This document shows, piece after piece, positions 29,889 through 42,980 of a DNA stretch of 64,000 bases. Each line of letters opens with the position of its first letter. The first letter of the stretch is position 1. The notes under the pieces were generated by a model. It was not told where the DNA came from. It did not search any database and saw only the letters and a program-made list of their open reading frames with translations. Made by a program: the position numbers and the translations under genes. The stretch spans positions 124,001 to 188,000 of the forward strand of contig NZ_JH376597.1 of assembly GCF_000233955.1 (NCBI RefSeq), in the 5' to 3' direction. Origin of the DNA: Paraprevotella clara YIT 11840. GTDB taxonomy: Bacteria; Bacteroidota; Bacteroidia; Bacteroidales; Bacteroidaceae.

Positions 29889-29923
29889 ATCGCCATATAG
29901 ATTTAAGAATGATTATTCGTCTG

Positions 29924-29931
29924 CAAAGTAA
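29924..29931 (-). promoter_or_regulatory. -7-like box for GH97 gene
   Basis: TTACTTTG followed by CA on the minus strand, 36 bp upstream of the start codon. The identical TTACTTTGCA is found at the sugar porter promoter at the same distance from the shared operator. Confidence 0.6.
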
Positions 29932-29950: not shown

Positions 29951-29988
29951 GAAATGGAGAGAATCACTTATCACATGGACAATTTTGC
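29951..29988 (-). promoter_or_regulatory. Shared 38-bp operator, GH97 copy
   Basis: On the minus strand: GCAAAATTGTCCAT, then GTG, ATAAGTGATTCT, C, TCCATTTC. It differs from the copy at 32718-32755 at only three positions and lies exactly 19 bp from TTACTTTG, as the other does. Two TCCAT boxes are 21 bp apart, the spacing expected of AraC-type or hybrid two-component regulators. At this copy, GATTCTCTCCATT also has an inverted partner at 29989-30001, giving a 13-bp perfect inverted repeat (29953-29965 with 29989-30001). Confidence 0.8.
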
Positions 29989-30026
29989 GATTCTCTCCAT
30001 TCCTATATGACTTGCCATACGGCCGC

Positions 30027-32363
30027 TCATTCCACACCCCACTGCTTGTTCGGCGTGCGCCCCAACACGAAGTGCAACTCACCGCCACGGACGATATCCT
30101 CGTGGTCGATATAGCAACGGTTGTAAGGCTTGCCGTTCAGCGTGGCCGACTGGATGTAACAGGCATCGGGCGCATTCCCCTCCGTAGTGACTACAAACTT
30201 ACGGCCTTTGGCATAACGGCGGTCGAGCGCGATCTCCACACGGTCGAACACAGGGGCTGTCAATTCATAACGCGTCTCGCCCGGACAAAGCGGATGGAAC
30301 CCCGCAGAAGCCAGGATATACCAGGCCGACATCTGCCCCACATCCTCATTGCCGCACAGCCCGGCCAGACTGTTCTTGTAAGCGTCGGCACAAATCACAC
30401 GCGTCCAGTACTGCGTGAGCCACGGCGCCCCCAAGCGGTTGAAGAGGAAAGGCACGTGGTGCACGGGTTCATTGGCATGATTATAATAGGGATTCCAATA
30501 GAATTCGCGCGGCGTGTTTTCAAAAAAGGATTCCAGATCGGCCAGCACTTTGTCGCGACCGCCCATGATTTCCACCATGCCGGACACGTCGTGCGGCACG
30601 AACCAACCCTGTTGGTAGGGATTGCACTCCATGCAACCGTACCACTCCTGCAAGCGTCCTTTTTCCGGCCAGTCCGCCCACGAGCCGTCGGCGTTGCGCA
30701 CGCGGAACCATCCCTTTTCCTTGTCGAAGATTTTACGGTATGCCTGTCCGCGCCGGTGATAGATGCCGGCATCCTCCGTCTTGTCTAAAGCCTCGGCCCA
30801 TTCGCCCACACACCAATCGAAGTATCCGTATTCCAACGTTTCCGATATGCCGCTGCCGCCGGGCGAATATCCCAGTTCCGGATGGTGCCCGATGCGGTCG
30901 GCGGTCTGACGGGCAAAGCGGTAAGCTTTCTCCACGTCGTATCCGCGTATGCCTTTCATATAGGCATCGACGATGACGGCTATGGCCGGATTACCCAACA
31001 TGCAGCCGCTGTAAGCGTTCAGGAACTCCCAACGTTCGTACACGCCCGTACCGTTTTCCTCGGCCAGAGTGACAAACGAGTTGATCATGTCGTTCACCAC
31101 TTCCGGATTGATAAGGTTTTGCAGGGGGAACTGGCTGCGGAACACATCCCAACCGCTGAACACCGTACGCTTCTTGAATGCGTCGGTCTTGTGCACCTTC
31201 CGGTCTCCTCCCACGTATTCACCCGTCACATCGCGATAGTCGCGCGGGTCTATCATCGTGTGGTACAGCGAAGTATAAAAAATCGTGCGCTCATCTTCTG
31301 TCCCCCCGGAGATTTTGATTTTCGACAAGGCCTCGTCCCACAGCGCAGCCGCCTTTTCGCAATACCGTTCGAAGTCCTTTCCCTTCAATTCGGCTTTGAA
31401 GTTCGCCTCCGCTCCTTCCAGACTGACAAAGGAGATGGCCGTGCGCATCAGCACCTGTTCGCCTTCGCGCGTGGGGAACTCCGTATAAAATCCCAAATGG
31501 TCTCCCTCCATGCGGTCGGGACGTTCCGTCACCTTCGCCCGGCGCACCGCCTCGGCAAATTCCGGCGAGGTCACGTTTTCCAACTTGCGCCCCATACCCT
31601 CAGGAAACTCGGCCGACCATACGCCGTAACGCTCCAACGGCTTGCTGAAACGGGTGTAAAAGTAGACCGTATAATCGGCCTTCCCTCCCCCGTTGCCCCA
31701 ACCGCCTCCGTCGGGCGTGCAACGCATCCATCCGCGGATAGCATAGTCATCCACACACTCCACGTACTGCCGGACAGACGTACCGCCCACACGGCGGGCC
31801 AAGTCGATTTGAATGCGCGAACATTCGTTTTCCGGATAAGTGAAACGCATGACCCCACCGTGAGGCGTGGCCGTCAGTTCCGCCCGGATGTCATAATCGG
31901 TCAGGCGGACAGCGTAATATCCTGCACGTGCCGTCTCGCTCTCCTTATCGTAACGCGAACGGTAGCCCTCCTCCGGACGTTCCGCCTCGCCGCGATACGT
32001 ATGCAAAGGTCCTGTGGTGGGCATCACTAAATAATTCCCCAAATCGCCATACCATCCGATGCCGCTCATCTGGGTCAAGGCAAAGCCCTCGATGGTCGTA
32101 TGTTCATAACTGTACCCCGAACCGTTGTCGCCTCCGGTAATGGTATTGGGGCTGACCTGCGTCATGCCCCACGGCGTGGCCACACCGGGAAAGGTCTTTC
32201 CCAACCCATGTTCGGCCTTGGCCATTTGTGTGTTCGTCGTAGCCCCAATAAACGGGTTCACATACTCCGACAAGCGTTTTCCTCCACGAGCCTGCACGCT
32301 CAAAGCCGCCGTGGCCGCTATGGCCAGTACTCCGGCCTGCTTCAAATTCAACTTTATTTCCAT
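30027..32363 (-). CDS. Glycoside hydrolase family 92, alpha-mannosidase
   Basis: A 778-residue exported enzyme (signal peptide KQAGVLAIAATAALSVQARG). GH92 features: SEYVNPFIGATTNTQ, GKTFPGVATPWGMTQVSPNT, QMSGIGWYGDLGNY, SGWDVFRSQFPL, WNPYYNHANEPVHHVPFLFN with the metal-site NEP, and CGNEDVGQMSAWYILASAG. GH92 enzymes cut alpha-mannosidic bonds of N-glycans or yeast mannans in a calcium-dependent way. The ATG at 32363 is chosen: the in-frame start at 32459 would put a -7 box inside the gene. Confidence 0.9.
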   Translation of the reverse strand: MEIKLNLKQAGVLAIAATAALSVQARGGKRLSEYVNPFIGATTNTQMAKAEHGLGKTFPGVATPWGMTQVSPNTITGGDNGSGYSYEHTTIEGFALTQMSGIGWYGDLGNYLVMPTTGPLHTYRGEAERPEEGYRSRYDKESETARAGYYAVRLTDYDIRAELTATPHGGVMRFTYPENECSRIQIDLARRVGGTSVRQYVECVDDYAIRGWMRCTPDGGGWGNGGGKADYTVYFYTRFSKPLERYGVWSAEFPEGMGRKLENVTSPEFAEAVRRAKVTERPDRMEGDHLGFYTEFPTREGEQVLMRTAISFVSLEGAEANFKAELKGKDFERYCEKAAALWDEALSKIKISGGTEDERTIFYTSLYHTMIDPRDYRDVTGEYVGGDRKVHKTDAFKKRTVFSGWDVFRSQFPLQNLINPEVVNDMINSFVTLAEENGTGVYERWEFLNAYSGCMLGNPAIAVIVDAYMKGIRGYDVEKAYRFARQTADRIGHHPELGYSPGGSGISETLEYGYFDWCVGEWAEALDKTEDAGIYHRRGQAYRKIFDKEKGWFRVRNADGSWADWPEKGRLQEWYGCMECNPYQQGWFVPHDVSGMVEIMGGRDKVLADLESFFENTPREFYWNPYYNHANEPVHHVPFLFNRLGAPWLTQYWTRVICADAYKNSLAGLCGNEDVGQMSAWYILASAGFHPLCPGETRYELTAPVFDRVEIALDRRYAKGRKFVVTTEGNAPDACYIQSATLNGKPYNRCYIDHEDIVRGGELHFVLGRTPNKQWGVE

Positions 32364-32402
32364 GATATTTTGTATGATATTCAAGTAGTATAACTCAGCA
32401 TA

Positions 32403-32410
32403 CAAAAGTA
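32403..32410 (-). promoter_or_regulatory. -7 box for GH92 gene
   Basis: TACTTTTG on the minus strand, 40 bp upstream of the start codon. The shared 38-bp operator is not present upstream of it. Confidence 0.6.
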
Positions 32411-32563
32411 CGAAAAGAAAACCTTGCCTCTGTCCGAAATTCTCGTCAAAAACAAACAAATTCGCTCCAAAGTCAATATTTTTTAGAGTAGAAGCCCAAT
32501 AGGATCTCCATCAATAACACACTATGATACAACGATTTATGATTTACAAAATTTTCTCCTGAG

Positions 32564-32651
32564 AACGATTCGCCGTTCTGCGCCAAACGATTTTCCGTTC
32601 TCAAGAGATTGATTTTCCGTTCTGCGCCAAACGATTCGCCGTTCTCCCTTT
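32564..32651. repeat. Dispersed 22-bp-unit element, tandem form (copy 3)
   Basis: Four head-to-tail 22-bp units starting at 32564, 32586, 32608 and 32630. Each begins (A)AYGATT or ATTGATT, has CCGTTCT at the same offset, and ends GCGCCA or CAAGAG. Same unit as the palindromic copies elsewhere but arranged as direct repeats. It lies in the 455-bp divergent gap between GH92 and the sugar porter; 32411-32563 holds nothing else I recognise. Confidence 0.85.
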
Positions 32652-32717
32652 GTCAAAATAAGCCACTGCGTCGCCCATACCCCGAACCGTCGCCCGGCCG
32701 CACAAAAACACCCCACC

Positions 32718-32755
32718 GCAAAATTGTCCATATCATAAGTGATTCTATCCATTTC
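32718..32755 (+). promoter_or_regulatory. Shared 38-bp operator, sugar porter copy
   Basis: GCAAAATTGTCCAT, ATC, ATAAGTGATTCT, A, TCCATTTC. Nearly identical to the GH97 promoter element and at the same 19-bp distance from TTACTTTGCA. The two TCCAT boxes are again 21 bp apart. It implies common control of GH97 and the porter-DUF5107-galM operon. Confidence 0.8.
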
Positions 32756-32774
32756 CGGAACCGCAAAAACCGCG

Positions 32775-32782
32775 TTACTTTG
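32775..32782 (+). promoter_or_regulatory. -7-like box for the sugar porter operon
   Basis: TTACTTTG followed by CA, 37 bp upstream of the porter start codon, the same sequence as at the GH97 promoter. Confidence 0.6.
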
Positions 32783-32818
32783 CACCCAGAAAATATTTCT
32801 TAAACCATTTCTACAATC

Positions 32819-34204
32819 ATGAAGACAAAAACAAATCTTTACCTGTTTCTGATTGCGCTGATTTCCGCCATGGGCGGTTTCCTTTTCGGTTACGACTGGG
32901 TCGTAATTGGTGGCGCCAAACCTTTTTATGAACAATACTTCCAGATTGCCGACAGCCCTTCGCTTCAAGGGTGGGCCATGAGTAGTGCGTTGATCGGCTG
33001 CCTCATCGGCGCGTTGAGCGCGGGCAAGCTGAGCGACAAATTAGGCCGTAAACCCATATTGATACTGGCCGCCGGACTATTCATCTGTACGGCCGTGGGC
33101 ACGGGTGCCGCCGACACGTTCGGACTGTTCAACGTGTTTCGCCTCATCGGCGGATTCGCCATCGGCATCGCTTCGAGCCTTTCTCCTATGTATATAGCGG
33201 AAATCGCCCCGGCCCACTTGCGCGGACGTTTCGTGTCCATCAACCAGTTGACGGTAGTACTGGGAATCCTTAGCGCACAAATCGTCAACTGGCAGATTGC
33301 CGAACCGGTGGCCGACCACGCCACAGCCGAGATGATACGCCTGTCGTGGAACGGACAAATGGGATGGCGGTGGATGTTCTGGGCCATGGTCGTACCCGCA
33401 GCCCTTTTCTTCGTCTTCAGTTTCGTCCTGCCCGAAAGCCCGCGCTGGCTGGCCTCATCGGGGTACAAGGAGAAAGCCTTCGGCATCTTCGCGAAGATAG
33501 GCGGCGAGGCCCATGCCCGTGAAGAACTGGCAGCCATAGAAGCCGCCGCAGGAGAGAAAACCGTGGAAGGCGGATTCAAACAACTGCTCCACCCCTCGAT
33601 GCGCAAAATCCTGCTCATCGGCGTGGTGATGGCCGTGTTGCAACAGTGGTGCGGCATCAACGTCATCTTCAACTATGCCCAGGAAATCTTCATGGCAGCC
33701 GGTTACGGCGTGTCCGACGTGCTGATGAACATCGTGGTGACGGGAGTGACCAACGTGATTTTCACAGTATTGGCCATGTGCGTGGTAGACCGTTGGGGAC
33801 GCAAAGCCCTGACTCTCTTCGGGGCGTTCGGCCTGACACTGATTTATGCCTTCATGGGTGCAGCCTACTGGTTCCATATCAGCGGAGTCATGCTGCTCGT
33901 CATCGTGGTGGCCGCTATCGCCTGCTACGCCATGACGCTGGCTACGACCATGTGGGTCATCATCTCCGAAATATTCCCCAACCGCATACGGGGCGTAGCC
34001 ATGTCGGTATGTACCTTCGCCCTTTGGGCCGCCTGCTTCATCCTGACGTACACCTTCCCGGTGCTGAACAGCGGATTGGGCGCAGCCGGGACGTTCTGGC
34101 TCTATGGCATCATCTGCCTCGCCGGTGGCATCTTCGTATGGCGCCGCCTGCCTGAAACGAAAGGCAAGAGTCTGGAAGAAATCGAACACGAACTTATCCA
34201 ATAA
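32819..34204 (+). CDS. MFS sugar/H+ symporter (sugar porter, XylE-like)
   Basis: A 461-residue 12-helix transporter with the sugar-porter signatures: GGFLFGYDWVVIGGA in helix 1, GKLSDKLGRKP (loop 2-3), PMYIAEIAPAHLRGRFVSIN, PESPRWLASSGYK, VLQQWCGINVIFNYAQ, VDRWGRKALTLFGAFG and LPETKGKSLEEIE. Relatives carry xylose, arabinose, galactose or glucose with a proton. First gene of an operon with the DUF5107 protein and galactose mutarotase, which points to galactose or a related aldose. Confidence 0.9.
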   Translation: MKTKTNLYLFLIALISAMGGFLFGYDWVVIGGAKPFYEQYFQIADSPSLQGWAMSSALIGCLIGALSAGKLSDKLGRKPILILAAGLFICTAVGTGAADTFGLFNVFRLIGGFAIGIASSLSPMYIAEIAPAHLRGRFVSINQLTVVLGILSAQIVNWQIAEPVADHATAEMIRLSWNGQMGWRWMFWAMVVPAALFFVFSFVLPESPRWLASSGYKEKAFGIFAKIGGEAHAREELAAIEAAAGEKTVEGGFKQLLHPSMRKILLIGVVMAVLQQWCGINVIFNYAQEIFMAAGYGVSDVLMNIVVTGVTNVIFTVLAMCVVDRWGRKALTLFGAFGLTLIYAFMGAAYWFHISGVMLLVIVVAAIACYAMTLATTMWVIISEIFPNRIRGVAMSVCTFALWAACFILTYTFPVLNSGLGAAGTFWLYGIICLAGGIFVWRRLPETKGKSLEEIEHELIQ

Positions 34205-34215
34205 CTTCATACATC

Positions 34216-37200
34216 ATGGAAAAAATCACATCCTATTTGATTCAAAGCACGGTGAACACCTCCGAGGTGCGTGCATGGGAAGAGGACATCCTGCTCCCCA
34301 CCTACGAAATCGGCAAGGAAGAAAAGAATCCGATTTTCTTGGAGAAACGTGTCTACCAAGGCAGCAGCGGCGTGGTCTATCCTTATCCCGTGGTAGAGAA
34401 AATCTCCGACGAGAAGAAAGACAAGCTTTACCATGCGCTCTTCATCGAGAACGAATATATCAAGGTGATGATACTCCCGGAACTGGGCGGACGCATCCAC
34501 ATGGCCTACGATAAGGTGAAGCAACGCCACTTCGTGTACTACAACCAAGTGGTGAAGCCCGCACTCGTCGGCCTGACCGGCCCGTGGATTTCGGGCGGTA
34601 TCGAGTTCAACTGGCCGCAACACCACCGCCCGTCCACGTTCCTGCCCACGGACTTCTCCATCGAGGAGCATGCCGACGGCAGCAAGACGGTATGGTGCAA
34701 CGAAGTGGAACGCATGTTCCGCACCAAAGGGATGCAGGGCTTTACGCTCTATCCGGGCAAGTCGTACATCGAAATCAACGTGAAGATTTACAACCGTACG
34801 TCTTTCCCGCAGACGTTCCTGTGGTGGGCCAACCCGGCCGTGGTGGTCAACGACCACTACCACTCGGTGTTCCCGCCCGACGTGAACGCCGTGTTCGACC
34901 ATGGCAAGCGTGACGTGTCGTCGTTCCCCATCGCCACGGGCACTTACTACAAACAAGACTATTCCGCCGGTGTGGACATCTCGAAATACAAGAATATCCC
35001 CGTGCCGACATCCTACATGGCCATTCAATCGAAATTCGACTTCGTGGGCGGATATGAAGAGGACGTGAAAGGCGGATTGCTCCACGTAGCCGACCACCAT
35101 GTGTCGCCGGGAAAGAAGCAATGGACATGGGGCAACGGCGACTTCGGACGCGCATGGGACCGTAACCTGACGGACGAGGACGGCCCGTACATCGAACTGA
35201 TGACAGGCATGTACACCGACAACCAGCCGGACTTCACGTGGTTGCAACCCTACGAGGAAAAGTCGTGGAAACAATACTTCATGCCCTACGCTGAGGTGGG
35301 CTACGTGAAGAATGCTACCAAGGACGCGTTGCTGAACATGGAAGTCAAGGAGGGAAAAGGCAAAGTCATCCTGTATACCACCGGAGTGAACAAGGACGTG
35401 CATGTGTTCGTCAAGGACAACGTGAACGGCGGCACCCTTTTCGACAAAGTCATCTCCATCTCTCCGGCAGAACCGTTCCAAGCTGAATTTGCCGCCGAGG
35501 GCTTGAAAGACGAAGACATCCTGGTTGAAATCCGCAACCACGAGGGCCGCATCCTGGTAAGCTATCAGGCCGACAAACCGGAAATCAAGCCCGTACCGGA
35601 TCCGGCCAAGGCCGCCAAAGACCCGAAGGACATCGCGTCCATCGAACAGCTCTACCTCACGGGACTCCATTTGGAGCAATACCGCCACGCGACTTACAAC
35701 CCGATGGACTACTATGAAGAAGCACTGAGCCGCGAACCGGGCGACGTGCGTTGCAACAACGCCATGGGGTTGCTCCTGATGCGCAAGGGACAATTCGCCA
35801 AGGCCGAAGGTTATTTCCGCAAAGCCGTCGAGACCCTGACGGAACGCAATCCGAACCCTTACGACGGTGAACCGTATTATAATCTGGGTTGGAGCTGTCT
35901 GATGCAGGACAAAACGGACGAGGCATACGACGCGTTCTTCAAATCGGCCTGGAATGCCGCTTGGCAGGATGCCGCCTATTACAACTTGGCCGCCATCGAC
36001 TGCCGCCGGGGCAACTTCGAGAAAGCCCTCGACCTGATAGACCGCTCGCTCGTACGCAACTGGCACCACCATAAGGCACGCCAACTGAAAGTCTCCATCC
36101 TACGCCACTTGGGACGTAAGGAAGAAGCCCTCGAACTGATAGCGGAATCGCTCAAGATAGACCGCTTCAACATGGGATGCCGCTTCGAGCAATATCTCCT
36201 CACGGACGACGACAACGTACTGAAGGAAATGCAGCAACTGATGCGAGGCGCAGCCCACGTCTACATAGAATACGCACTCGACTTCGCACAGGCCGGGCTT
36301 TACGACGAGGCCATCAACCTGTTGGAGGGTTACGCCGCCACACAAAGCTCAGTTTACCCGATGGTACATTACGCGTTGGGTTACTGCCACTCGCGTAAAG
36401 GCGACACGGTCAAGGCGCTCGAATATTACAAAAAGGCCGAACAGGACGACCATTCTTACTGCTTCCCCAACCGCATCGAAGAAGTATTGGTGTTGCAGGA
36501 TGCCATGAAAGAGAACCACGAAGCCTGTGCCAAAGCGGCCTACGCCCTCGGCAATTTCTGGTATGCCGCACGGCAATACGACAACGCCATCGCATGCTGG
36601 GAAGCATCGGCCGCTATCGACCCGGCGTTCCCTACCGTATGGCGCAACCTCTCGTTGGCTTACTACAACAAACGCAACGATTCGCAGAAGGCGGTGGAAA
36701 CACTGGAGAAGGCTTACCGCCTCGACGAAAGCGACGCCCGCATCCTGATGGAATTGGACCAGCTCTACAAACGGCTCGGACGTCCGCAAGCGGAACGTCT
36801 CGCATTCCTCGAAGCCCATCCGGCCGAAACGGAAAGCCGCGACGACCTGTCCATCGAGCGCATCACGCTCTACAACCAATTAGGACGCTATGAAGAGGCC
36901 AAGGCACTGATTGCCGCCCGCAAATTCCATCCGTGGGAAGGCGGTGAAGGAAAAATCACGGGGCAATACACCATCTGCCATGTGGAACTGGCCAAAATCG
37001 CCCTGCGCGAACACCGCTACGCCGACGCTTTGGCTTTGTTGCAGGCCACAGACCAATACCCGTACAACTTGGGCGAAGGCAAACTCATCAATGCAGAAGA
37101 AAACGACATCTGGTACTACAAAGGACTGGCTTACCGCGGACTGGGAGATGAAGAAAACGCCAAACTTTGGTTGCACAAGGCCACCCAAGGCTCTGCCGAA

Positions 37201-37560
37201 CCGCAACAGGCGTTTTTCTACAACGATGCGCAACCAGACAAGATTTTCTATCAGGGACTGGCTTGGCGCGCATTGGGCGAGGAAAGCAAGGCACGCGGAC
37301 GCTTCAACAAGCTCATCAAGCATGGTGAGAAACACTTGTTCGACCACTGCCGCATAGACTACTTTGCCGTATCGTTGCCCGACCTGGCCATCTGGGAGGA
37401 CAATCTGGACAAACGCAACGCCATCCACTGCAACTATGTCATGGGATTGGGCTATTTAGGATTGGAAGACCGCGTACACGCCATCGAGTACTTGGACAAG
37501 GCACGCGCTTTGGACATCAACCACCAAGGTGCACAAATCCATCGTGAATTATGCGAATAA
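34216..37560 (+). CDS. DUF5107 domain protein with TPR repeats
   Basis: A 1114-residue cytosolic protein without signal peptide. The N-terminal half has DUF5107-type motifs: PYPVVEKISDEKKDKLYHAL, IKVMILPELGGRIHMAYDK, GPWISGGIEFNWPQHHRPST and WTWGNGDFGRAWDRNLTDED, a fold likely related to mutarotases. From about residue 470 on, tetratricopeptide repeats follow (YYNLGWSCLMQDKTDEAYDA, AYYNLAAIDCRRGNFEKALD). The biochemical role of the family is unproven. It starts 11 bp after the porter and overlaps galM by 10 bp, tying it to aldose uptake. Confidence 0.85.
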   Translation: MEKITSYLIQSTVNTSEVRAWEEDILLPTYEIGKEEKNPIFLEKRVYQGSSGVVYPYPVVEKISDEKKDKLYHALFIENEYIKVMILPELGGRIHMAYDKVKQRHFVYYNQVVKPALVGLTGPWISGGIEFNWPQHHRPSTFLPTDFSIEEHADGSKTVWCNEVERMFRTKGMQGFTLYPGKSYIEINVKIYNRTSFPQTFLWWANPAVVVNDHYHSVFPPDVNAVFDHGKRDVSSFPIATGTYYKQDYSAGVDISKYKNIPVPTSYMAIQSKFDFVGGYEEDVKGGLLHVADHHVSPGKKQWTWGNGDFGRAWDRNLTDEDGPYIELMTGMYTDNQPDFTWLQPYEEKSWKQYFMPYAEVGYVKNATKDALLNMEVKEGKGKVILYTTGVNKDVHVFVKDNVNGGTLFDKVISISPAEPFQAEFAAEGLKDEDILVEIRNHEGRILVSYQADKPEIKPVPDPAKAAKDPKDIASIEQLYLTGLHLEQYRHATYNPMDYYEEALSREPGDVRCNNAMGLLLMRKGQFAKAEGYFRKAVETLTERNPNPYDGEPYYNLGWSCLMQDKTDEAYDAFFKSAWNAAWQDAAYYNLAAIDCRRGNFEKALDLIDRSLVRNWHHHKARQLKVSILRHLGRKEEALELIAESLKIDRFNMGCRFEQYLLTDDDNVLKEMQQLMRGAAHVYIEYALDFAQAGLYDEAINLLEGYAATQSSVYPMVHYALGYCHSRKGDTVKALEYYKKAEQDDHSYCFPNRIEEVLVLQDAMKENHEACAKAAYALGNFWYAARQYDNAIACWEASAAIDPAFPTVWRNLSLAYYNKRNDSQKAVETLEKAYRLDESDARILMELDQLYKRLGRPQAERLAFLEAHPAETESRDDLSIERITLYNQLGRYEEAKALIAARKFHPWEGGEGKITGQYTICHVELAKIALREHRYADALALLQATDQYPYNLGEGKLINAEENDIWYYKGLAYRGLGDEENAKLWLHKATQGSAEPQQAFFYNDAQPDKIFYQGLAWRALGEESKARGRFNKLIKHGEKHLFDHCRIDYFAVSLPDLAIWEDNLDKRNAIHCNYVMGLGYLGLEDRVHAIEYLDKARALDINHQGAQIHRELCE

Positions 37561-38555
37561 ACACACAAGTGATCTGTAATATGCCGACGGGCGCCCCGGT
37601 CTACGGCTTCCGGTTGACAAACTCAACCGGAGCCGTGGTTGAACTGACCAACTGGGGTGCCCGTTGGCTTTCTGCCATCGTGCCGGACAAACACGGAGAG
37701 ATGGCGAATGTGCTCGTCAGCCCGACCGACCTGTTGTCGGACGAGTTCTACATGGGAGCCATCGTGGGCCGTTTTGCCAACCGCATCGGAGGCGCACGCC
37801 TCTGCATCGACGGGCAAACCTACGAACTGGAAAAAAACGACGGGCAGAACACCAACCATGGCGGCTTCTCCGGCTTCGACCGCATGCTGTGGGACTGGGA
37901 AGTTTTGGATGAAGGCGTGCACTTCACGCGGCTTTCCCCCGATGGAGAAGGCGGTTATCCGGGCAACGTGCGTATCACGGTGGAATACCGTTGGAACGAT
38001 GACAACGAGCTGTCCATCCGCTACTATGGAACAACAGACAGGGCGACCTACCTGAACCTGACGAACCATGCCTACTTCAATTTGGGTGACAAAGGAGAGA
38101 AAATCACGGGACATGTATTGCGCATCCCTTCACATACGATGCTGGACACCACCCCGCAGTTCATTCCCACGGGTAAACAGGTGAAGGTGGACGGCACGCC
38201 TTTCGATTTCACTTTTGCCAAACCCATCGGACAGGACTTATATGCCAACCATAAGCAACTGAAATGGAACAAAGGTTACAACCACTGTTACGTACTGAAA
38301 ACGGAAAAGTCTCCCGACATGGTGGAGGCCGCCCGGTTGTCCGAGCCCACCACGGGCCGCAGCCTGACGGTAAAAACCAACCTGCCCTCCGTACTGCTCT
38401 ACACAGCCGGTTATTACGTCCATCCCGACACCGCCGTCTGCCTCGAAGCGCAATACTATCCCGACACACCATCGCATCCCGATTTCCCCTCCTGCCTGTT
38501 GCGTCCTGGGGAGGAATATCGGCAAACTACGGTGTTCCGGTTCGATACGGAATAA
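37551..38555 (+). CDS. galM: Aldose 1-epimerase (galactose mutarotase)
   Basis: Interconverts the alpha and beta anomers of galactose or other aldoses. Seen in 334 residues: NWGARWLSAIVPDKHGE, MGAIVGRFANRIGGARLCID, NDGQNTNHGGFSGFDRMLWD, LTNHAYFNLGD with the catalytic histidine, and SVLLYTAGYYV and CLEAQYYPDTPSHPDFPSCL with the catalytic glutamate. The start overlaps the end of the DUF5107 gene by 10 bp; a strong terminator follows. Confidence 0.95.
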   Translation: MRINTQVICNMPTGAPVYGFRLTNSTGAVVELTNWGARWLSAIVPDKHGEMANVLVSPTDLLSDEFYMGAIVGRFANRIGGARLCIDGQTYELEKNDGQNTNHGGFSGFDRMLWDWEVLDEGVHFTRLSPDGEGGYPGNVRITVEYRWNDDNELSIRYYGTTDRATYLNLTNHAYFNLGDKGEKITGHVLRIPSHTMLDTTPQFIPTGKQVKVDGTPFDFTFAKPIGQDLYANHKQLKWNKGYNHCYVLKTEKSPDMVEAARLSEPTTGRSLTVKTNLPSVLLYTAGYYVHPDTAVCLEAQYYPDTPSHPDFPSCLLRPGEEYRQTTVFRFDTE

Positions 38556-38675: not shown

Positions 38676-39332
38676 CTATACTTTACAGGTGTCAATGATT
38701 TGGGTTATCCACCTATTGAATCTCGGACATTTTTCAAGCATACTCATTATCCCCACCTCCAGTGCTATTAAGTTTCCCTCCAACACTTTATTATAATCAG
38801 ATTTCAAGGCCAACAATCTTTTAGAAGGTGCTCCCTCTGGAGATGAATTTATATCTTCCGGATTTTCATACGAGGAAACAATATTATTTGTTTTTTTAGC
38901 ACATTCTTCTGAGAAGTAGTACTCAAAACCATTATTATTAGAAAACAAAAGAGCCTCAAATTCATGTAACTGGATATAAGAAAAGAAACGTCTATCTCCG
39001 ATATGTTCATTCATAGCGCTTTCCAGTGCTTTGACACGCTCTATTTTACTGGCTTTCGCCATACATTCTTCATACCTCGGCATGGTGTTAGGTATCCTGA
39101 AAAAGTCGATGAATGTAGTTACAACAAAATCATTCCTTGAAGATCCCAAAAGCGATTTGACGGTATTCCATAAATGCTGGTAATTCACCATTCCACCTCT
39201 CCCGTTCCTACTGGTCCGGATCAAAACCGGAGTAATATTGAATACGCCAAATTCTTGTAAATAAAGAGAAATAACAGTATTGACGAATTCCTGCTCAGTT
39301 TGTCCTTCCACAACAATATATACACGTCTCAT
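38676..39332 (-). CDS. DUF4276 family protein, TOPRIM-like
   Basis: A 218-residue protein. Seen: RRVYIVVEGQTEQEFVNTVI at the N terminus (the VEG glutamate motif of TOPRIM-like folds), DFVVTTFIDFFRIPNTMP with an acidic residue, and FFSYIQLHEFEALLFSNN, the usual DUF4276 hallmark. A nuclease role is likely by fold analogy but not demonstrated. The ATG at 39332 overlaps the ATPase stop (ATGA), so the two products are probably made together. Clearly more A+T rich than the flanking genes. Confidence 0.85.
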   Translation of the reverse strand: MRRVYIVVEGQTEQEFVNTVISLYLQEFGVFNITPVLIRTSRNGRGGMVNYQHLWNTVKSLLGSSRNDFVVTTFIDFFRIPNTMPRYEECMAKASKIERVKALESAMNEHIGDRRFFSYIQLHEFEALLFSNNNGFEYYFSEECAKKTNNIVSSYENPEDINSSPEGAPSKRLLALKSDYNKVLEGNLIALEVGIMSMLEKCPRFNRWITQIIDTCKV

Positions 39333-40423
39333 AACTGTCCTCCTATCATATTCTTCTCCCACAAATCACTAATTGACAAATCGTATTCATCCATCCATGT
39401 CGCCAAATCCTCCTCTGACAAATGCCTAAAAACAGATTGGCTCTCAATCCTATCCACAACTATAATATCTTTCACATCAAAGCAATTCACTAAATTTGTA
39501 GATTGTGTGGATAAGATAATCTGACTCTTATTGGATGCACGTTTGACAAGTTCGGCAAACTTATTTATAGCAGCAGGATGCAAACCAAGCTCGGGCTCAT
39601 CAATCACAATAACCTCGGGGGTTTTCGATTGCAACAGTAAAGTGGCTAAAGCAATAAAACGTAAAGTCCCATCCGAAAAACTGTATCCGTTAAGATACAT
39701 ATCTGTCTCCTTTTCTTCCCATTCCAAGCGTATTCTTTCCTTATCATTTACATCCGGACGTAACTTGAAACACTTAAAATAGGGCGCAATCGAACTTACC
39801 ACTCCTTCTATCAACCGAAAATTAGTTTCATCATTTTGCATCATAGAATAGAGAAATGCCGCTAAATTAGAACCATTGTCACGAAGGCATTCGTTATCAT
39901 TGATATTACAATCTCCACGCATAGGAGAACTTGCACTGGTATCATGAAAATGATATACCGTAAAGCTACTCAAATATTTCTTTAAATAACCGGCCCTCCA
40001 TTTGAGATTTTGGATTAAAGAAGATTCTTCAACAGCGGAATCCCATAGCGTCTTATTCCATTCCGCATAATCCTTACCTTCTGTATGGAAATTATTGAAA
40101 TAATCCCCCGTTTTTTCTATAAATCCCTTATTGGATTGCGCGGGTTTTATTTCAAAAAAGAAAGCATTATTATTATCGAAATCTAATAATCCATGGATGG
40201 AAGGAGATACCTTCCTTCCACGATACAACAAGCTGTCAATACCACCTTTTGACAAAGTATAACTTCCGAACCGTTGCTCATATATGGCTTTCGTCAATTC
40301 AAAAAATGAGATAAAATTACTTTTACCCACACCGTTTGAACCAATGAGCACATTCAATCGGTTTAAGGGTAAAGACAAATCCCTTATCGACTTATAATTA
40401 TTTATTACAACCTGCTCTATCAT
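39329..40423 (-). CDS. AAA_21-type ATPase, partner of DUF4276 protein
   Basis: A 364-residue SMC/RecF-like ATPase: LNVLIGSNGVGKSNFISFF (Walker A near residue 28-35), the signature-like YSFSDGTLRFIALATLL, EVIVIDEPELGLHPAAINKF (Walker B near 270) and QIILSTQST (histidine-loop region). A lone ATPase of this type coupled to a TOPRIM-like protein is the layout of OLD-like and PARIS-like anti-phage modules. That is inference; no phage data. Two-gene unit with 4-bp overlap, next to tRNA-Gly. Confidence 0.88.
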   Translation of the reverse strand: MIEQVVINNYKSIRDLSLPLNRLNVLIGSNGVGKSNFISFFELTKAIYEQRFGSYTLSKGGIDSLLYRGRKVSPSIHGLLDFDNNNAFFFEIKPAQSNKGFIEKTGDYFNNFHTEGKDYAEWNKTLWDSAVEESSLIQNLKWRAGYLKKYLSSFTVYHFHDTSASSPMRGDCNINDNECLRDNGSNLAAFLYSMMQNDETNFRLIEGVVSSIAPYFKCFKLRPDVNDKERIRLEWEEKETDMYLNGYSFSDGTLRFIALATLLLQSKTPEVIVIDEPELGLHPAAINKFAELVKRASNKSQIILSTQSTNLVNCFDVKDIIVVDRIESQSVFRHLSEEDLATWMDEYDLSISDLWEKNMIGGQL

Positions 40424-42086: not shown

Positions 42087-42980
42087 TTACCCTTTCTTCT
42101 TTGATTTATATTCCGACGGCGACATGCCCATGTATTTCGTGAACTGTCGGGAAAAGTAAAGCGAATCCTCATAACCGACCAACGGACTGATCTGACTGAT
42201 TTTCAACTCTGTGAAATCCAAATAATGACAGGCTTCCTGAATGCGGAGGTATCCCAAATAACGCAAAGGGGGAGAACCGGTCTTGTCCTCAAAGACATTG
42301 GAGAAGTAAGACGGGGAAAGTTTCACTTCGCGGGCAATATCCGTCAGACGGATTTTCTTATTCAAGTTTTCCTGCATGAAATGAATGGCACGCTGCACCA
42401 CGTCTCGTTTTTCCTGCACACCCGCAAAACGGCACTCACGGTATTCTCCAAGAAACTTCATGGAACCTAAGAAGTGGAAAAGGCTCGTCGTGGCATACAA
42501 CATGTAGTTTTTGTTATACCCAGAACTGACCGAAGCATAAATTTCTTCAAACAGCATCAGACGTTCTTTGATACGGGAATGTTCTGCCGGTGAAATATCA
42601 TGCGGCTTACTGAAACCCACACTGAAAAAGGCGGCTTTCGCGCCATCGAAATGAATCCAGTAAATCGTCCAAGGATTCTCAGCCTTACTGCCATAAGCAT
42701 GCGCCTTATATTTGGGCAAAATGAAAAACTGGTTGGCCCCAACGTCATAACGCTTACCGTCCAGTTCGAACCATCCCTCCCCCTCTACACAATAAATCAG
42801 CACAAACTCATTGGAATCCTCCTCTTTCCGCTCACAATAATGAAAACCAGCATGCGGATAATAACCGATATCCGTGATGTAAAGCTCGCGGCCCAAAGGG
42901 TCGCGCTTCAACTCTTCTATCAAAAATCCCGGCAAGACAACTATCCGTTCTCCCTTGAACCCTTCCTTTATCCGTGGCAT
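42087..42980 (-). CDS. AraC-family transcriptional regulator
   Basis: A 297-residue regulator with an N-terminal cupin-like sensor (LIYCVEGEGWFELDGKRYDV, IYWIHFDGAKAAFF) and a C-terminal double helix-turn-helix (RLTDIAREVKLSPSYFSNVF then FSRQFTKYMGMSPSEYKSK). Such N-terminal domains often bind sugars. It lies directly upstream of the nitroreductase and rhodanese lipoprotein genes on the same strand (34-bp gap) and may share their transcript. Its target is not shown; the TCCAT boxes at 30.0 and 32.7 kb are candidates. Confidence 0.9.
   Translation of the reverse strand: MPRIKEGFKGERIVVLPGFLIEELKRDPLGRELYITDIGYYPHAGFHYCERKEEDSNEFVLIYCVEGEGWFELDGKRYDVGANQFFILPKYKAHAYGSKAENPWTIYWIHFDGAKAAFFSVGFSKPHDISPAEHSRIKERLMLFEEIYASVSSGYNKNYMLYATTSLFHFLGSMKFLGEYRECRFAGVQEKRDVVQRAIHFMQENLNKKIRLTDIAREVKLSPSYFSNVFEDKTGSPPLRYLGYLRIQEACHYLDFTELKISQISPLVGYEDSLYFSRQFTKYMGMSPSEYKSKKKG

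Follow-up and report, generated by a model that had tools for sequence, protein, structure and literature searches.

The sugar regulators of Bacteroides are, in the parts of the literature examined, mostly hybrid two-component systems (HTCS), SusR-like proteins or regulators of the GntR, LacI and NrtR types. HTCS combine kinase and receiver domains in one large membrane protein; according to the available part of PMC3878776, they carry an AraC-type DNA-binding domain, recognise direct repeats about 21 bp apart and control glycan genes. RhaR of B. thetaiotaomicron (BT3768), the target of which is rhamnose genes and which is compared here by description only, is the single AraC-family entry among the non-HTCS regulators in that same part. 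In this study, we analyse a 64,000-nucleotide stretch of Paraprevotella clara YIT 11840 (contig NZ_JH376597.1, hereafter the window), in which two nearly identical 38-bp elements precede a glycoside hydrolase family 97 (GH97) gene and an operon of sugar porter, DUF5107 and galM genes. Comparison of sequences indicates that these elements are very probably operators for an activator of the AraC family, with the protein encoded at 42087-42980 as the best candidate and galactose as the likeliest inducer.

The predicted system resembles HTCS in its DNA-binding domain, its repeat spacing and the kind of genes controlled. It differs in that the regulator is a soluble 297-residue protein with a cupin domain and helix-turn-helix (HTH) motifs, and in that no susC or susD gene was identified among the AraC targets. 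AraC-type direct-repeat operators were already known, and what is new is an AraC member with a predicted operator and regulon; no description of either was found in the full-text literature searched, from which subscription journals are mostly absent. The operators, promoters and genes concerned are the following.

29951-29988, minus strand: predicted GH97 operator, with TCCAT at 29975-29979 (distal half-site) and 29954-29958 (proximal)
32718-32755, plus strand: predicted porter-operon operator, with TCCAT at 32727-32731 (distal half-site) and 32748-32752 (proximal)
29922-29931, minus strand: TTACTTTGCA, predicted -7 element of GH97, read from the letters
32775-32784, plus strand: TTACTTTGCA, predicted -7 element of the porter operon, of Bacteroidota type, from the letters and the consensus TAnnTTTG given for the phylum in the available part of PMC7366714
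27873-29888, minus strand: GH97, closest to retaining alpha-galactosidases (profile and structure-sequence matches)
30027-32363, minus strand: GH92, between the two operators (profile match)
32819-34204, plus strand: sugar porter of the major facilitator superfamily, XylE-like (profile match), first gene of the operon 32819-38555
34216-37560, plus strand: DUF5107-TPR protein, second gene of the operon (profile match)
37551-38555, plus strand: galM, aldose 1-epimerase, third gene of the operon (profile match)
42087-42980, minus strand: AraC-family regulator with a cupin sensor and a double HTH, proposed reader of the operators (profile, co-occurrence and model)

Two elements and their distribution

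Direct reading confirmed what an earlier note on this DNA had described. The GH97 element (reverse complement GCAAAATTGTCCATGTGATAAGTGATTCTCTCCATTTC) and the porter-operon element (GCAAAATTGTCCATATCATAAGTGATTCTATCCATTTC) agree at 35 of 38 positions, each lies 19 bp from the identical TTACTTTGCA, and the TCCAT boxes inside each start 21 bp apart. A repeat search lengthened the pair to 39 nt with 92% identity, and by an arithmetic estimate a 35/38 match between any two places in 64 kb has a chance expectation of about 1e-8. Within the window, a perfect TCCAT-N16-TCCAT occurs at these two operators only; the same search gave 9 matches in total, 7 of them with a mismatch, and 13 of 100 shuffles reach 9. 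GH92 has no site of its own, as had been claimed, and the porter copy stands some 355 bp away from the start codon of GH92, in the divergent region that the two genes share.

The scans of the own genome covered 4,231,598 bases in 165 contigs. With up to three mismatches, the 38-bp element was found at the GH97 and porter copies only (reversed control, 0). The architecture TCCAT-N16-TCYAT-N22-TTAYTTTGC was present without mismatch at three places, the third being a more diverged site on another contig (C28:82760-82816), located 30 bp before the start codon of a GH3 gene. This search gave no place with one or two mismatches, and the remaining 14 of its 17 matches, all with three mismatches, were taken as noise (control, 7). 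A relaxed pattern with variable promoter distance and TNNYTTTG as the -7 element returned the same three sites (control, 0), and none when TANNTTTG, a wrong form of that element, was used. Large numbers of copies far from promoters, which the earlier note had named as the outcome that would count against operators, were not found in these scans. The regulon that it proposed, GH97 together with the porter operon, is supported as far as it goes and is too narrow, given the site at GH3.

The distribution of the sites was then compared in 18 genomes of the genus, in which homologues of the AraC protein (E <= 1e-40) were found in six. Zero-mismatch sites, 10 places altogether, were present in five of these six (G000, G014, G001, G015 and G011) and in none of the 12 others (p 7e-4). 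They lie upstream of GH97 in G000, G014, G001 and G015, of the porter in G000, G014, G001 and G011, and of GH3 in G000 and G014. The GH97 operator is kept in G014 and G015, while its copy in G001 is degenerate in the second box (TCTAT); the porter operator is kept in G014 and G001. Within the genus, the sequence around the sites has diverged and the boxes and spacings are unchanged. In G011 (porter 61%, AraC 45%) the two boxes and the promoter distance are preserved in a site of which the rest is little alike. The G001 locus is compact, with GH97, GH92, porter-DUF5107-galM and then a convergent AraC gene 65 bp after galM.

A search of 301 Bacteroidaceae genomes that allowed up to one mismatch gave 31 places, and the reversed pattern gave 4. 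The 30 readable ones precede a porter homologue (16), GH97 (4), GH2 (3), GH3 (2) or none of these (5, one of them a phosphodiesterase-like gene); the GH2 genes are of the exo-beta-1,4-galactosidase kind and one is a 120-residue fragment. Of the 22 genomes that carry a site, 18 have an AraC homologue (E <= 1e-60); among the 279 remaining genomes the number is 36 (p 1e-11 by Fisher's test, not corrected for relatedness). Outside the genus the proportion was 13 of 17 site genomes (p 3e-8).

In addition, the spacing was examined in 105 loci, comprising 25 AraC-centred loci and, from named genomes, the best 80 of 592 loci with a DUF5107 gene. With up to two mismatches, the spacing pair 16 and 22 gave 39 sites, compared with 0 to 9 for the 80 other spacings and none for the reversed pattern. 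In 33 of the 70 porter-bearing loci, the AraC and porter genes point away from each other at a distance of at most 400 bp, and in other Bacteroidota a site lies between a divergent AraC gene and a porter or DUF5107 gene. The site directly precedes a DUF5107 gene in five loci (L034, L042, L048, L052 and L084); Phocaeicola vulgatus ATCC 8482 has a site before its porter (L007), Phocaeicola coprophilus has further sites before GH95 and GH2 genes, and a Paludibacteraceae genome has one before a GH36 melibiase. Given the confinement of the sites to such promoters, their tracking of AraC homologues and their position between divergent genes, one AraC-type regulator common to GH97 and porter-DUF5107-galM, as the earlier note supposed, is supported by the comparison.

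The AraC protein and the E. coli half-site pattern

The protein encoded at 42087-42980 matches HTH_18 (PF12833) with 70.8 bits, above the cut-off of 33.6, and has an N-terminal cupin domain (PF02311, 61.9 bits, cut-off 21.1). It scored 97.8 bits with the E. coli AraC equivalog model NF007860, under the cut-off of 208. AraC_binding/Cupin_2 and HTH domains are the only ones in its 297 residues, and the kinase and receiver domains that define HTCS are lacking. Among the AraC-type proteins of the own genome (30 of 35 matches examined), the next DNA-binding domain is 33% identical, so that no close competitor was found, which favours this protein as the reader. Its model (mean pLDDT 85.8, pTM 0.57) has a sensor domain nearest to BgaR (Foldseek TM by target up to 0.74) and then to E. 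coli AraC, and a DNA-binding domain resembling 2k9s (0.82). The first match by E-value was ToxT, with a poor whole-protein superposition (0.36). BgaR is a lactose sensor (PDB 6nwh, 6nwo) with a sensor domain alike in fold at about 20% identity, and the close likeness is confined to that domain.

Two direct half-sites 21 bp apart beside a promoter are what is expected of an AraC-type operator, and both elements have them. An alignment of 48 non-redundant sites of 57 gave the consensus aTMRTAAnATWR-TCCAT, roughly, upstream of and including the first box, with a weaker version before the second. Conservation outside the search pattern was found at -7 (A, 0.88), -6 (A, 0.90), -4 (A, 0.90) and -3 (T, 0.79). 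In the K-12 record, the E. coli araBAD region has TAGCATTTTTATCCATA, with TAGC recurring after 21 bp, and I1 reads TAGC-N7-TCCATA. On this reading of the araBAD region, the A-box, the 7 bp, the TCCAT box and the 21-bp repeat correspond to the head-to-tail half-sites of araI1-araI2. We take TAGC and TCCATA to be the contacted boxes at araI1. The porter operator also shares 12 identical bases (AATTGTCCATAT) with the araC-araB intergenic region, a match that presumably lies in araO2. In the second HTH (HTH2), E. coli AraC has FDDQLYFSR and the protein of the window YEDSLYFSR. The two systems differ in overall identity of the regulators (25%, and 33% in the DNA-binding domain, 2k9s), in the A-box (TMRT here, TAGC in E. 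coli), in the Bacteroidota -7 promoter and in the target genes; DNA looping is a feature of E. coli AraC and is set here beside a comparison of sequences only.

In the mechanism that we propose, each element would hold two head-to-tail half-sites of 17 bp at a spacing of 21 bp, both of them composed of a TCCAT B-box and an A-box upstream of it. With a sugar bound in the cupin domain, an AraC dimer would occupy both half-sites from the same side of the helix. Between the end of the proximal B-box and the predicted -7 element there are 22 bp, which would set this box at the -33 region. The proximal half-site of E. coli AraC lies against the -35/-33 region. From such a position the sugar-bound dimer could contact RNA polymerase and would recruit it, in the manner of AraC at araI1-I2. 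One sugar would then switch on GH97, porter-DUF5107-galM and, elsewhere in the genome, GH3, with transcription expected to start about 7 bases past TTACTTTG.

The 400 bp upstream of 79 AraC homologues, read in the divergent direction, contained a TCCAT-type pair only in 38 cases, a TACAT pair only in 12 and neither in 29. Tyr275 goes with TCCAT boxes in 38 of 38 homologues and His275 with TACAT boxes in 12 of 12; residues 271, 279 and 227 also separate the two groups, as do several outside the DNA-binding domain. This is consistent with HTH2 as the reader of the box and is no proof of it. Since the box label changes once on a tree made by a quick method with all columns kept, the split counts as one event, and the covariation of box and recognition helix was rejected as repeated independent evidence. 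A related lineage of AraC, from Sphingobacterium, Tannerella, Prevotella and others, has TACAT-N16-TACAT in place of the TCCAT boxes before the divergent porter; these sites lie upstream of the AraC gene in loci L010, L014, L015, L016, L019, L021, L022 and L025-L029. We suggest, tentatively and just short of even confidence, an old and widely kept galactose-sensing AraC regulon of Bacteroidota with the half-site grammar of E. coli. In one lineage of it TCCAT would have been switched to TACAT as the recognition helix of HTH2 changed at residues 275 (Tyr to His) and 271 (Glu/Asp to Tyr), so that the specificity of the second HTH could be read as a code.

Inducer, competing explanations and objections

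The inducer is probably D-galactose, which is favoured by the galactosidase-like genes of GH97, GH36 and GH2, by galM and by the BgaR-like sensor. The nearest solved GH97 structure to the protein of the window is the retaining alpha-galactosidase 3a24 (E 1.3e-122; SusB, 4.7e-37), and the protein of the window scored 577 bits with the retaining alpha-galactosidase model NF053844, under the curated cut-off of 800. L-arabinose, D-xylose or another sugar acting through the same operator system is a possible, rather doubtful alternative. The best NCBIfam matches, namely E. coli AraC at its sub-threshold score, XylE and Xyl3A, are in its favour, and E. coli AraC has been crystallised with both L-arabinose and D-fucose, to judge from structure titles. 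Against it, the genes behind sites elsewhere are largely galactosidase-like (GH97, GH36 melibiase and GH2 of the exo-beta-1,4-galactosidase kind), with galM in addition, and the nearest relative of the modelled sensor domain senses lactose. The own GH3 gene, the best model of which is the Xyl3A beta-xylosidase (below the model cut-off), is cut off by the contig end; the counterpart in G014 is complete, with 865 residues.

The earlier note had proposed the AraC protein at 42.1-43.0 kb or other AraC or HTCS regulators for a test of binding. Of these kinds, a non-HTCS AraC fits better than an HTCS. An HTCS with an AraC-type domain encoded elsewhere would account for the geometry, as the motifs of Bacteroides HTCS are direct repeats with a mean spacing of 21 bp (PMC3878776, available part), and the genome has several large AraC-domain proteins, in open frames of about 870-1416 residues. 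We consider it improbable and disfavour it, given that across genomes the site tracks the cupin-type AraC and in other species sits between AraC and porter; Pfam identified no HTCS among the 18 window proteins scanned. Recent duplication or a mobile repeat without regulatory meaning is scarcely credible and largely refuted: the two promoter regions do have a second, weaker match of 38 nt in common around the -7 element (74%), but the genome has just two close copies, G001 keeps both sites though the flanks diverged, and the box spacing is conserved upstream of homologous genes in distant Bacteroidota.

Several observations weigh against assigning the operators to this AraC protein and to galactose. 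In the window, neither operator adjoins the AraC gene, which stands some 3.5 kb past galM; the genes in between include a HEC-01-like defence pair, and no site precedes the AraC gene itself. In the family, 36 of the 54 AraC-bearing genomes have no site at up to one mismatch and 4 of the 22 site genomes have no AraC at E <= 1e-60; for 29 of the 79 AraC genes, the 400 bp upstream contain neither box pair in exact form. The two-mismatch matches in the genus (7) do not exceed the control (5) and were treated as noise, control matches being about as frequent; at that stringency, a match in G004 between the AraC gene and a GH2 gene is a possible site. The association of Tyr or His with the box amounts to the single change on the tree and is accompanied by differences at many other residues. 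The inducer sugar is a guess from neighbouring gene families, with the porter matching best XylE and the GH3 protein a beta-xylosidase model, and the scores with the AraC, GH97, GH3 and XylE equivalog models all lay below the cut-offs.

The AraC protein of the window and its predicted sites offer a concrete candidate sensor-operator pair for gut and environmental Bacteroidota, with a soluble regulator, a defined operator and promoter distance and a small regulon (importer, mutarotase, galactosidases and DUF5107). It would tie the unexplained DUF5107-TPR protein to galactoside use and might provide a small sugar-inducible promoter. The matched set of regulators and boxes can also serve for asking which HTH2 residue reads which base.

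Other features of the locus

A perfect inverted repeat overlaps the GH97 operator.

29953-30001, no strand assigned: 13-bp inverted repeat, arms 29953-29965 and 29989-30001 (repeat search)

The outer arm forms an extra, oppositely oriented TCCAT box upstream of the operator. The repeat is present in G014 and, with 12 bp, in G015, and is absent from G001; it may be a third half-site or part of a terminator for GH92. Imperfect 22-bp tandem repeats (CGATTTTCCGTTCT...) occupy 32554-32641 in the intergenic region of GH92 and the porter, and a different 22-bp repeat pair was read by eye in the same region of G001. They are perhaps the site of another regulator, for GH92.

The DUF5107-TPR protein is 65-87% identical across its first 480 residues in 16 relatives, and the name DUF5107 is scarce in the full-text literature searched. 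Its fold model was poor (mean pLDDT 59.6) and was not used. The candidate defence system between galM and AraC (38676-40423, minus strand) consists of a DUF4276 protein and an AAA ATPase, the best PADLOC matches of which are the two components of HEC-01. It has the same position in G014; in G001, where tblastn found no relative, galM adjoins AraC.

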